Source: Luteitalea sp. TBR-22
GTDB lineage: Bacteria > Acidobacteriota > Vicinamibacteria > Vicinamibacterales > Vicinamibacteraceae
Assembly (NCBI RefSeq): GCF_016865485.1
Contig: NZ_AP024452.1
Span: 3,680,501 to 3,744,500 of the forward strand
Direction of reading: 5' to 3'
DNA: 64,000 nt
Below, piece by piece: positions 4,098 to 62,502 of the stretch; positions within the stretch are counted from its first letter, which is position 1; every line of letters starts with the position of its first letter. The notes under the pieces were generated by a model. It ran no database searches, was not told the DNA's origin, and saw only the letters and a list, made by a program, of their open reading frames with translations. The translations under genes and the position numbers were made by a program.

Positions 4098-4107
4098 CGC
4101 GGGCCCA

Positions 4108-4243
4108 GGGCTCAGGGCTCAGGGCTCAGGGCTCAAGGCTCAAGGCTCAGAGAGCATTCTGCACGGCAAGGACGACGAAAACGGGCGCCCCGGTGAGGGG
4201 GCGCCCGTGGTGTTTCTGAGCCCTGAGGCGTGAGCCCTGAGCC
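4108..4243. repeat. Heptamer-bracketed terminator cassette, copy 2 (inverted)
   Basis: Six 7-base units GGGCTCA/AGGCTCA (4108-4149) face four complementary units NTGAGCC (4216-4243) across a strong hairpin at 4181-4208. Read on the minus strand the cassette matches the one at 1546-1706: AAACACCACGGGCGCC, the hairpin loop and the closing ATGCTCTCTGAGCC are all shared, with one mismatch in about 40 bases around the hairpin. The right arm runs directly into the pfkA stop codon. Unique spacer sequence beyond the hairpin differs between copies. Confidence 0.85.
4181..4208. terminator. Bidirectional hairpin between the asparaginase gene and pfkA
   Basis: An 11-base-pair perfect stem ACGGGCGCCCC / GGGGCGCCCGT with a 6-base loop. 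It is preceded by AAA and followed by GGTGTTT, giving modest T-tracts on both strands, as expected between two convergent genes. Confidence 0.75.
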
Positions 4244-7390: not shown

Positions 7391-7400
7391 CACTCGAGGG

Positions 7401-7530
7401 GGCCTTGGGCCTTGGGCCTTGGGCCTTGGGCCTTGGGCCTTGGGCCTTGGGCCTTGGGCCTTGGGCCTTGGGCCTTGGGCCTGCATTAGGCATTCGGCAT
7501 CCTGCATTAGGCATTCGGCATTCGGCATTT
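7401..7530. repeat. Two adjoining heptamer arrays, (GGCCTTG)11 and seven GGCATTC-type units
   Basis: Eleven perfect copies of GGCCTTG (7401-7477) plus a partial copy are followed without loss of the seven-base phase by seven units TGCATTA/GGCATTC/GGCATCC/GGCATTT (7482-7530). The first array places GGG every seven bases on the plus strand and fits a G3N4 quadruplex motif. The block occupies the space between the divergent tRNA-Ala and fmdB-like genes and ends one base before the latter's -10 box, so any -35 element would lie in repeat DNA. Confidence 0.9.
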
Positions 7531-31523: not shown

Positions 31524-31533
31524 CGATTTACAC

Positions 31534-31603
31534 GGGCACCGGGCACCGGGCACCGGGCACCGGGCACCGGGCACCGGGCACCGGGCACCGGGTACCGGGT
31601 ACC
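31534..31603. repeat. Heptamer array, (GGGCACC)7 plus three variants
   Basis: Ten 7-base units, seven GGGCACC, two GGGTACC and one GGGTCCT, with no interruption. GGG recurs every seven bases on the plus strand. The array lies between the ffh promoter and the ribBA end, covering the ffh -35 position. A looser block of CATTCC/GGCATT units follows at 31633-31666. Confidence 0.9.
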
Positions 31604-31684
31604 GGGTCCTGGGAAGGCCGACCACGCCGCGACATTCCGGCATTCCCGGCATCGCGGCATTCTCAAGGGCGAGTAGACCTGCGG

Positions 31685-53829: not shown

Positions 53830-53834
53830 GCGCC

Positions 53835-53866
53835 GGGCTCCGGGCTCCGGGCGACCGGGCACCGGG
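53835..53866. repeat. Short GGG-phased array after groL
   Basis: Units GGGCTCC, GGGCTCC, GGGCGACC and GGGCACC start five bases after the groL stop. GGG occurs five times at spacings of seven or eight bases on the mRNA-sense strand, fitting a quadruplex motif in the 3' untranslated RNA. Confidence 0.75.
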
Positions 53867-53907
53867 TCAGGCAGGTCGGGCCGGGTCTCAGGAACCGGCC
53901 CGAACCA

Positions 53908-53936
53908 GGGCGCCTCTCGAAGGCGCCCAGCTTTTC
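53908..53936 (+). terminator. Intrinsic terminator 1 of groSL
   Basis: Perfect 8-bp stem GGGCGCCT / AGGCGCCC with loop CTCGA, then AGCTTTTCGT. It lies 78 bases after the groL stop. Confidence 0.85.
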
Positions 53937-53950
53937 GTGTGGTGCGAAAC

Positions 53951-53995
53951 GGGCCCGTCGGAGCGATCCGGCGGGCCCTTGTTCGTTCTGCGGCG
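53951..53995 (+). terminator. Intrinsic terminator 2 of groSL
   Basis: GGGCCCGTCGG pairs with CCGGCGGGCCC across a short loop and is followed by TTGTTCGTTCT. It is a second, backup terminator 15 bases after the first. Confidence 0.75.
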
Positions 53996-54008
53996 AGGGT
54001 CGACAACT

Positions 54009-54063
54009 CCCGACTCCCGACTCCCGATTCCCGACTCCCGATTCCCGATTCCCGACTCCCGCC
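54009..54063. repeat. Heptamer array CCCGACT/CCCGATT at the TonB-like gene end
   Basis: Seven uninterrupted 7-base units (four CCCGACT, three CCCGATT) plus a partial copy run up to the stop codon of the minus-strand gene. On that gene's sense strand the unit is GGGAGTC/GGGAATC, with GGG every seven bases. With the G-rich array after groL it brackets the groSL terminators. Confidence 0.9.
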
Positions 54064-60423: not shown

Positions 60424-60981
60424 GTGACCGACGAGGACCTCGTGGCCCGCGCGCAGGGCGGAAGCCAGGACGCCTGGGCCGCGCTCGTGCAGCGGCACCA
60501 CGGGGCCGTGTTCCGGGCGGCCCACGCGGCGCTGCTCTCGCACGAGGAGGCCGACGACGCGGCGCAGGAGGCGTGGATCTCGGCGTGGAAGGCGCTCGGG
60601 GACTTCCGGGGGCAGGCGGCGTTCCGGACGTGGGTCGTCGCCATCGCCTGGCGCAAGGCCCTCGATCGTCGTCGCGGGATGGTCGGCTGGATGCGGATGC
60701 TGCGGATCGGCGTGGCCCGGGACGAGGAGGAAGGTCCGGAGCTGGATCTGGAAGGCGACCAACCCGATGCCGAGCGGGCGCTGCTGGACGACGAGGCGCG
60801 CGGGCGCCTCAAGCGGCTGGTGAAGGGGCTGCCCCGGGCCCACCGCGACGCGCTGCTGCTGGTGGCGACGCAGGACGTGCCTTACGCGGAGGCCGCGGCG
60901 CTGCTGGGGATTCCGGTGGGCACGCTGAAGTGGCGCGTGAGCGACGCGCGGCGCATGCTGCGCGAGCGAATGGGACGGTAG
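60424..60981 (+). CDS. ECF-family RNA polymerase sigma factor
   Basis: A 185-residue sigma factor from GTG 60424. Region 2 includes EEADDAAQEAWISAWKALGD and FRTWVVAIAWRKALDRRR; region 4 includes RLVKGLPRAHRDALLLVATQ and YAEAAALLGIPVGTLKWRVS. It is followed by a membrane anti-sigma-like protein and an exported protein, so the three probably form a regulatory operon. TCTACA (60412-60417) lies just before the start and could be a -10 element, though weak. Confidence 0.92.
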   Translation: MTDEDLVARAQGGSQDAWAALVQRHHGAVFRAAHAALLSHEEADDAAQEAWISAWKALGDFRGQAAFRTWVVAIAWRKALDRRRGMVGWMRMLRIGVARDEEEGPELDLEGDQPDAERALLDDEARGRLKRLVKGLPRAHRDALLLVATQDVPYAEAAALLGIPVGTLKWRVSDARRMLRERMGR

Positions 60982-61067
60982 GAAGACGGCCTTCGTGATT
61001 CCGCCTCCGCCGAGGCTACGGCGGACAAGTCGGCCGTCGGCCTTCGGAAGGACACGTCGGTTCGTAG

Positions 61068-61089
61068 CCGTCGACCTTCAGGTCGACGG
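61068..61089. repeat. REP-like palindrome, sequence class a, in the sigma-operon gap
   Basis: GTAG directly precedes a 10-bp perfect stem CCGTCGACCT / AGGTCGACGG with loop TC. The surrounding 130-base gap (60982-61111) between the sigma and anti-sigma genes holds further short inverted repeats, including GCCTC/GAGGC followed by TACGG near 61005-61020. Similar GTAG-headed palindromes lie at 62626-62689 and 63370-63389. Confidence 0.7.
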
Positions 61090-61111: not shown

Positions 61112-61816
61112 ATGAACGCACACGACGACGAACGCATCGACGCCGCCCTCGAGGCGCTGGCCCGGCCGGAACCGCCGGCCGACCACGTGGCGCGCGTGCT
61201 GGCGCGAACGGGTTCCGCGGCAGGCGACGGGCTGCAGCCTGCGGGCTACCTGAAGCCCCGGTGGGTGCTACCGGTCGCGGCCACGGTACTCGTGGCGCTG
61301 GGTGCGACGTGGCAGGTCGGCAGGCTGTCGGTCGCCATGCCGGGCGTCGAGGTGGCCAGCGCGCCGGCGTGGGGCACGCCGCAGGAGGTCGATCGCCCCG
61401 TGCTGCCGCCGCAGGCCTATTGGGGGATGGACGCGTTCGAGGAGTGGGCCAGCCTGAGGCCGGGAGTCGGGAGTCGGGAGTCGGGAGTCGGGCGCAGCAC
61501 GCCGGGCTCCGGGCTTCGGGCAGCGGGCACCGGGGCAACGGCGGGCACCGGGCACCGGGCAGCGGGCACCGGGGCATCACCGGGCACCGGGCGGCGGGCA
61601 CCGGGCACCGGGAGGACGGCGGGCGCCGGAAGCGTGGCGGCGCCGCAGATGGCGTGGGTGCCGGTGCCATCGGGGCTGCCGCCGATCGAGCTCGAGCCGA
61701 TCGCGCCGGCCCCCATCGAGATCGCGCCGGTCGCGGCGCTGGAAGACATCACCGTTACGGACATCACCCTGGCGCCGATCGTCGTCGCGCCGGTGGACGA
61801 ACAGGAGAAGCCATGA
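61112..61816 (+). CDS. Probable membrane anti-sigma factor, interrupted by heptamer repeats
   Basis: A 234-residue protein from ATG 61112. The short N-terminal part (DDERIDAALEALARPEPPAD) resembles the cytoplasmic segment of an anti-sigma factor, and one membrane helix follows (WVLPVAATVLVALGATWQVG, 51-70). Residues about 117-172 are translated heptamer repeats (Gly/Ser/Arg/Thr-rich, 61462-61626). The C-terminus VAALEDITVTDITLAPIVVA is regular again. No zinc HxxxCxxC motif is seen. The position after the sigma gene supports the role; the family is not recognised. Confidence 0.7.
   Translation: MNAHDDERIDAALEALARPEPPADHVARVLARTGSAAGDGLQPAGYLKPRWVLPVAATVLVALGATWQVGRLSVAMPGVEVASAPAWGTPQEVDRPVLPPQAYWGMDAFEEWASLRPGVGSRESGVGRSTPGSGLRAAGTGATAGTGHRAAGTGASPGTGRRAPGTGRTAGAGSVAAPQMAWVPVPSGLPPIELEPIAPAPIEIAPVAALEDITVTDITLAPIVVAPVDEQEKP
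61462..61626. repeat. Heptamer array inside the anti-sigma coding sequence
   Basis: Four perfect GGGAGTC units (61462-61489) are followed by GGG-phased units GGGCTCC, GGGCTTC, GGGCAGC, GGGCACC and GGGCGGC, interrupted by three 11-base units beginning GGGGCA or GGGAGG. The same unit sequences occur in intergenic arrays at 54009-54063, 53835-53866 and 31534-31603. The whole block stays in frame within the gene. Confidence 0.85.
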
Positions 61817-62502
61817 AGACGCTGTCACTCGTTCTGCTGATCACCGCCCTCGGCACGCCCGTCCTCGCGCAGGACGCTCCGCATTTGGCCCCCCCGGCCA
61901 TGATGTACGTGAACGTGCCCGACACACCGCAGGCGGCACAGCCCGCGCCGCCGCGCGCGCCGCAGCCGGCCCAGCCACCGCAGGGAGGGGAGAAGTTCGA
62001 TATGCCGGTTCCGCCTCCGGCGCCGCCCCCGTCCGCGGAGAGGCGCCCGCTGCCGACGCGCAACGTGAAGGTGGACGTGACGATCACCGAGCAGAGCGGC
62101 ACGTCGGCGCCGGTCAAGAAGGTCGTGGCGATGGTTGTCGCCGACGGCCGATCGGGAGGAGTGCGGGCGATCACGACCGTGCCCGTCTACACGGGCAACA
62201 CGCGCGACCTTCCGCTGAACGTGGACGCCACCGTGACGGTGACACCCGAGCAGCGCGTGTTGCTGGAACTCCGATTCAACTACTCGAGCATGGCGATCAT
62301 GGCGCCGGAGCTTCCGAAGGGGTTCGCCGCGACCAACGAGGCCGAGCGCCTTCAGAGCGCACCTCGCCCCTCTCAGGTGAACATCGTGGAAACCGTGACG
62401 GCGCTGTTGACCCCAGGCACACCCACGGTGGTCGCCCGCTCTGCGGATGCCGCCACCGACCGCACCGTGACCGTCGAGGTGAAGGCGGAGATTCTGAAGT
62501 AA
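61813..62502 (+). CDS. Exported protein of the ECF sigma operon
   Basis: A 229-residue protein whose ATG overlaps the preceding stop (ATGA). The signal peptide is MKTLSLVLLITALGTPVLAQ. A Pro/Ala-rich segment runs to about residue 75. The C-terminal part (RNVKVDVTITEQSGTSAPVK; VDATVTVTPEQRVLLELRFN; NIVETVTALLTPGTPTVVAR) looks like a beta-sandwich domain. I do not recognise a family. By position it may be an output or sensor of the sigma/anti-sigma pair. Confidence 0.75.
   Translation: MKTLSLVLLITALGTPVLAQDAPHLAPPAMMYVNVPDTPQAAQPAPPRAPQPAQPPQGGEKFDMPVPPPAPPPSAERRPLPTRNVKVDVTITEQSGTSAPVKKVVAMVVADGRSGGVRAITTVPVYTGNTRDLPLNVDATVTVTPEQRVLLELRFNYSSMAIMAPELPKGFAATNEAERLQSAPRPSQVNIVETVTALLTPGTPTVVARSADAATDRTVTVEVKAEILK

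Follow-up and report, generated by a model that had tools for sequence, protein, structure and literature searches.

In Luteitalea sp. TBR-22, an array of G-rich heptamers lies inside the gene for an anti-sigma-like membrane protein, directly downstream of an ECF-type sigma factor gene. We consider it probable that this array (the focal array) belongs to a population of heptamer arrays dispersed through the genome, that it occupies a tolerant linker of the protein, and that it was filtered for reading frame and grew by blocks of 13 codons. An array would have entered, or grown in, the probably disordered stretch that connects the membrane anchor to the conserved C-terminal part, and only those forms whose total length kept the frame would have survived. 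Duplication of a 39-bp block, made up of four heptamers and an 11-mer (13 codons), would then have given a longer linker while leaving the gene intact. Instead of repeated filtering, one founding in-frame unit could stand behind all of the blocks.

The sigma factor locus and its neighbors

The TBR-22 genome is a single contig of 6,468,984 bp, the size given for the published chromosome of this member of the Acidobacteriota (PMC8852301), and public reads of the strain are deposited under DRA011791 and DRA013041. The window, that is, the whole stretch of 64,000 nucleotides analyzed here, covers positions 3680501 to 3744500 of the genome. Features of the locus are collected in Table 1. The order of an ECF sigma gene followed by a membrane-protein gene is conserved: we searched 162 genomes of the order, 47 of which held a sigma match at an E value of 1e-28 or better, and an ORF with a hydrophobic segment was present at 45 of these 47 loci. 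The remaining two were cut by contig ends and were left out of the count of 45 orthologs. Within the genus, the gene has orthologs in four other genomes (G001 to G004, the first of 7,480,314 bp), of which G002 is strongly diverged.

The protein matched no Pfam family at E values up to 1. Because no recognized anti-sigma domain came out of that search, we use the name anti-sigma-like only; position, one hydrophobic helix, and conservation are what suggest the label, and a function as an anti-sigma factor is putative for the 234-residue product. In the spacer between the sigma and anti-sigma-like genes (61064 to 61089 of the window) lies a palindromic element with a GTAG start, which we take to resemble REP elements. 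Similar elements were seen in G001, where they lie in the counterpart spacer, and elsewhere in intergenic DNA.

Table 1. Features of the locus and comparison arrays (window positions)
Feature	Position	Strand	Basis or remark
ECF-type sigma factor gene	60424..60981	+	Pfam Sigma70 r2 (E 1.4e-15) and r4_2 (E 3.1e-9); start uncertain
Anti-sigma-like membrane protein gene, 234 aa	61112..61816	+	ORF, position, sister orthologs
Predicted helix, residues 49-70, taken as membrane segment	61256..61321	+	Low-confidence structure model and hydrophobic sequence
Heptamer (G3N4) array, 21 G-tracts, within coding sequence	61462..61627	+	Direct reading, TRF, G-tract spacing
Block 1: GGGAGTC x4 + 14-base interval = 42 bp	61462..61503	+	
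Block 2: four heptamers + GGGGCAACGGC = 39 bp	61504..61542	+	
Block 3: four heptamers + GGGGCATCACC = 39 bp	61543..61581	+	
Block 4: four heptamers + GGGAGGACGGC = 39 bp	61582..61620	+	
Conserved C-terminal part 3' of array, including stop codon	61649..61816	+	Purifying selection, frame 0
Downstream gene, ATGA overlap with anti-sigma-like gene	61813..62502	+	Gain of one heptamer would enter its frame
Intergenic GGGCACC array, for comparison	31533..31606	+	TRF
Intergenic GGGAGTC/GGGAATC array, for comparison	54006..54061	- (G-rich strand)	TRF

The array is built of in-frame blocks

An earlier note on this DNA had described a heptamer array within the coding sequence, with units like those of intergenic arrays, and direct reading, TRF, and the open ORF all bear this out. 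The ORF is open throughout the array, which is itself open in all three forward frames, and its units GGGAGTC and GGGCACC also build intergenic arrays of the window. From 61462 onward, the spacing of the G-tracts is 7,7,7,7,14,7,7,7,7,11,7,7,7,7,11,7,7,7,7,11. The four blocks (42 + 39 + 39 + 39 = 159 bp, or 53 codons) are each a multiple of three and are followed by one further heptamer. The proposal that three 11-base units keep the phase thus held, with the addition that the 14-base interval restores it as well and that the last unit ends at 61627.

TRF reported period 7 at 61461 to 61492 (100% matches), period 7 at 61502 to 61612, and period 39 at 61499 to 61612, so the 39-bp period is given independently of our reading. 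The three 39-mers share 30 to 33 of 39 positions in pairwise comparison. The perfect stretch of the array measures 32 bp, or about 4.6 units, and most of the array is imperfect. Both this block structure and the conservation of the frame favor growth in whole codons, with block duplication as the presumed step.

The array occupies a linker that varies among sister species

The linker, bounded by conserved LR and AW motifs, has 64 residues in the TBR-22 protein, compared with 26, 28, and 27 in G001, G004, and G003, a lengthening of 36 to 38 residues relative to these three sisters. At the same position, G001 carries an 8-bp array (AGGAACAC) and G004 a short GGGCACC-like piece with a 7-lag score of 19/28. 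No array was seen at the aligned position of G003, and the divergence of G002 prevented an alignment there. The sequence before and after the array is conserved in frame in the three sisters. For the part after the array, dN/dS was 0.38, 0.42, and 0.35 against G001, G004, and G003 (53 to 55 codons, diverged species); judged from these comparisons, it is under purifying selection in an unchanged frame. A single-protein search of genome contigs for further close relatives returned none, and an alignment search returned two contigs, which matched G003:C54 and G004:C110 in length, so that they probably represent no new species.

In the structure model, pLDDT fell below 50 at residues 119 to 184, and the array encodes residues 117 to 172; since the whole model is poor (mean 49.9, four sequences), we say only that this segment is probably a disordered linker. 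Its location would be periplasmic. The idea of a tolerated insertion in a linker, which the earlier note had offered as one of two readings, fits a low-confidence segment that varies among sisters between conserved flanks, and tolerance may be why the array has persisted.

Two other readings can be weighed against the same comparisons. The frame across the array might be unreal, the gene having decayed or been mis-called, so that the array is effectively non-coding. The missing Pfam match and the low coding score of the ORF (27.2) point that way, but the in-frame conservation on both sides of the array, the dN/dS values after it, and the ATGA overlap with the next gene speak against it. We regard this reading as highly improbable, and a decayed gene was rejected on the dN/dS values. 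The array could also act at the level of DNA or RNA, with G-quadruplexes of the coding strand slowing transcription or translation and thereby setting the ratio of sigma factor to anti-sigma-like protein. All 21 G-tracts do sit on the coding strand, and G-quadruplex folding in vitro has been seen with oligonucleotides of the related GGGNATC repeats (PMC4692102). The array is absent from G003, however, and different in G001 and G004, and the study of the GGGNATC repeats identified no role in gene regulation (PMC4692102); we find such an action doubtful.

Slippage of single heptamers as a possible switch

The other reading put forward in the earlier note was a contingency (phase-variable) switch, in which slippage by a single heptamer turns the anti-sigma-like protein off and hence the sigma regulon on. 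Seven is not divisible by three, and the claim that gain or loss of one unit shifts the frame was confirmed by frame arithmetic: with one extra heptamer, reading would continue in the frame of the downstream gene as far as 62502, and with one fewer it would continue in a frame that is open to 62561. Both frames lose the conserved C-terminus, and a switch is therefore mechanically possible. A heptanucleotide repeat governs phase variation of pglE in Neisseria (PMC7157529), and the recurrence of arrays in orthologs described below would also agree with a switch. The perfect tract of the focal array is longer than the median for intergenic arrays (27 bp), but these range up to 83 bp and 18 of 48 reach at least 31 bp, so tract length alone is not decisive. 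A perfect intergenic array lies at 7400 to 7482 of the window. Against a switch stand the small number of perfect units in a mostly imperfect array, its structure of in-frame 39- and 42-bp blocks, the purifying selection on the frame that follows, the want of a conserved array in the orthologous linker of the sisters, and orthologs in which units, period, and position vary and which mostly have no array at our threshold. On these grounds the contingency switch was not supported, and we hold it to be unlikely.

Heptamer arrays across the genome

To return to the reading that we favor, a dispersed population of heptamer arrays is evident in TBR-22. Our sample of 1.264 Mb was composed of 60 spread 20-kb stretches and the window. 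Arrays with at least five GGG tracts numbered 40 at period 7 and 18 at its multiple 14, compared with none or one at the other periods from 4 to 15, and this period spectrum rules out a chance origin of the arrays in the sample. Over the whole genome, five spaced GGG tracts gave 399 forward and 292 reverse overlapping matches. When arrays with at least four tracts were taken (n = 52), 46 were intergenic, 2 partial, and 4 coding, with coding status from a home-made gene caller by which 89% of the sample is coding. Heptamer arrays are thus strongly depleted from genes. The period-7 pattern was found in 48 of the 60 genomes searched, TBR-22 included; the pattern is its own mirror, so a mirrored control is uninformative.

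The commonest array words are few, namely GGGAGTC/GGGAATC, GGGCACC with its variants, GGGCTCA, and GGGCCTT, and GGGAATC mainly accompanies GGGAGTC. In at least 7 of 10 places fetched for their likeness to the focal array, GGGCxxC units come after a GGGAGTC block, and an array at 4606.7 kb matches the focal array at 85% over 114 bases. Among 43 array chains examined, 11-base intervals occurred only in the focal array and in one at 2020103 to 2020211. The latter shares the four-plus-11 layout and is situated ahead of a PQQ-dehydrogenase domain, within an open frame. The home-made gene caller placed this second array outside the gene, and when the PQQ-dehydrogenase gene was compared with G004, G002, and G001, the best matches began only at query residues 41, 69, and 159, so that most or all of the array precedes them. 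A whole-genome search for the spacing 7,7,11,7 returned nine matches, two of them focal, one at 2020117, and six elsewhere. Among these six, a GGGAGTC array at 5595667 falls where no gene was called, which shows that single 11-base intervals also occur outside genes. We saw the 39-bp block in repeated form at two loci only, the focal array and 2020103 to 2020211, and as a gene-confined structure it rests firmly on one gene.

Syntenic intergenic sites in the sister genomes were tested for at least three G-tracts at period 7. Positive sisters were found at site 3 (1/1), site 4 (2/3), and site 6 (2/3), and none at site 1 (0/1), site 2 (0/1), or site 7 (0/3). In an autocorrelation scan of site 1, G001 proved to hold a period-7 array of another word. 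Thus an array is frequently, though not invariably, present at the corresponding place in a sister genome, and its word is usually another one.

By eye, inverted heptamer arrays flank a terminator-like hairpin between genes at 4098 to 4242 and 53830 to 54063 of the window, and a similar layout built of other repeat words is present at both sites in G001 and at the second site in G004. On the C-rich strand, GGGCACC arrays (e.g., L002, L005, L007, and L203) often end directly before a -10-like box. TANNNT was found within 16 nt of 11 of 43 GGGCACC-type arrays, compared with 4 of 40 GGGAGTC-type arrays and 578 of 18300 random intergenic 16-mers (binomial P = 7e-8 for 11/43, with some arrays being sub-arrays of one site). 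The G-rich strand of GGGCACC arrays follows the replichore at 35 of 41 merged places (P = 1e-5; best 40 of 130 candidates), with 14 minus and 4 plus below 3.15 Mb and 2 minus and 21 plus above it among these best-scoring places. A DnaA-like ORF, recognized by eye, starts at position 1, and the GC skew changes sign near 3.1 Mb. This strand bias may be a by-product of a position antisense to genes. GGGAGTC arrays had no clear replichore bias (26/42, P = 0.21; best 40 of 152 candidates).

Arrays inside other genes

An M17 aminopeptidase gene (Peptidase_M17; L099:3837-5384) contains GGGAGTC x4 in the part that codes for a loop preceding the GGISIKP motif. This loop has 21 residues in TBR-22, compared with 7, 14, 6, and 6 in G001, G004, G002, and G003, and GGGAGTC was absent from it in all four sister genomes. 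On this alignment, the aminopeptidase loop is separate evidence that heptamer arrays enter genes. A GMC oxidoreductase has GGGAGTC x4 right after its predicted start, which is possibly a wrong start, and the fourth coding array of the 52 matches over 24 bp, with three units that are unlike one another. At L004:2465-2495 (genome positions 4607700 to 4607730), a period-7 array called coding lies in an ORF with a repeat-derived peptide of AQGSES-type motifs.

Recurrence of arrays in orthologous genes

Arrays of 7 or 8 bp, defined by a threshold of 24/28 lag matches or more that was set post hoc, were found in 6 of the 45 orthologous ORFs (G000, G001, G029, G045, G020, and G035, from families f1, f15, f11, f2, and f10), and the other 39 had none at this threshold. 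The ORFs were chosen by hydrophobicity, a procedure that took the wrong frame at the focal locus and may be imprecise at others. In G029 and G045 the array is close to the N terminus, and the other four have it beyond the hydrophobic segment; that of G020 reaches the contig end. The ortholog in G030 has a 9-bp array. Units, period, and position of the array differ among orthologs. As a control, 3 of 999 TBR-22 genes, the focal gene included, reached the array score at non-triplet lags, this one genome being the whole of the control. The difference between 6/45 and 3/999 is significant (Fisher P = 3.5e-7) and holds when the focal gene is left out (5/44 versus 2/998, P = 2e-6). The contrast with the neighboring sigma genes, none of which has an array (0/45), is weaker (P = 0.026). 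Separately, two genomes of family f2, G133 and G135, have 8-bp words of the GGGTTCTG type ahead of the sigma gene (L160 and L168).

This recurrence could be a sign of selection for the array itself, which we count against a merely tolerated linker. On a bolder reading, 7- and 8-bp arrays would have landed again and again in the anti-sigma-like gene of this sigma group, in several families of the order, because selection favors such non-triplet arrays, either as evolvable switches or as length tuners, in a regulator of the envelope-stress type; each species would re-invent the array from a repeat word local to it. We think it improbable that this is so. The recurrence in orthologous regulators is nevertheless a point worth following.

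Significance and comparison with known systems

The focal array indicates that non-triplet repeats can enter and persist in genes by way of whole-codon blocks, in loops and linkers that tolerate changes in length. The focal gene, the aminopeptidase loop, perhaps the N terminus of the oxidoreductase, and the orthologs in other families form a natural series on the origin of repeat-derived protein segments, and the same series is suited to asking whether regulators are hit above expectation. In the open-licence literature, we found no anti-sigma factor with phase variation by simple sequence repeats. Searches there for tandem repeats in periplasmic anti-sigma linkers gave titles on other subjects only, those for Luteitalea repeats gave the genus only in the title of a genome announcement, and those for G-quadruplex tandem repeats in Acidobacteriota gave a general survey only, which is weak evidence of absence. 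The main text of Rehm et al. on GGGNATC repeats has no mention of "acidobacteri" (PMC4692102).

Those GGGNATC quadruplex repeats of Xanthomonas and Nostoc (Rehm et al. 2015, PMC4692102) are similar to the TBR-22 arrays in their 7-bp G3N4 tandem units and genome-wide dispersal. The intergenic share is also comparable, at 89% and 93% in two Xanthomonas genomes (PMC4692102) and 46/52 here. Both kinds form nearby inverted pairs, and in both the gene context is often kept while length and sequence vary between relatives (PMC4692102). They differ in their main units, which in TBR-22 are GGGAGTC, GGGCACC, GGGCTCA, and GGGCCTT, and in their host, an acidobacterium. What also sets TBR-22 apart from the repeats described there (PMC4692102) is a long intragenic array in which 11- and 14-base intervals restore the frame. 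As the GGGNATC consensus does not cover them, we place the TBR-22 arrays with repeats of the same kind and not as members of that family.

The TAACTGA heptamers of Beggiatoaceae (MacGregor 2015, PMC4679880) are likewise mostly intergenic direct repeats, and their copies in genes are found primarily at the protein periphery (PMC4679880). TAACTGA is not G-rich, however, and in one orientation gives stops in all frames (PMC4679880), whereas the focal array has three open forward frames. A 7-bp unit is shared with pglE of Neisseria (PMC7157529) and with the hmw1a and hmw2a promoters of Haemophilus (PMC2651432), where copy number can alter expression; the Haemophilus promoter tracts have 13 to 38 units and vary among strains (PMC2651432), while the focal array, with its few perfect units, is known from the assembly of one strain. 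In the coding tandem repeats of Borgs (PMC9879509, PMC12660748), disordered segments are made longer by repeats that keep the frame, in many cases within extracellular or membrane proteins, and the focal array may have a like effect here. Of the Borg repeats that lie in genes, 99% have a unit length that is a multiple of three (PMC9879509, PMC12660748). The focal unit is 7 bp and only its 39- or 42-bp block is such a multiple, and the focal blocks, unlike the Borg repeats, are imperfect.
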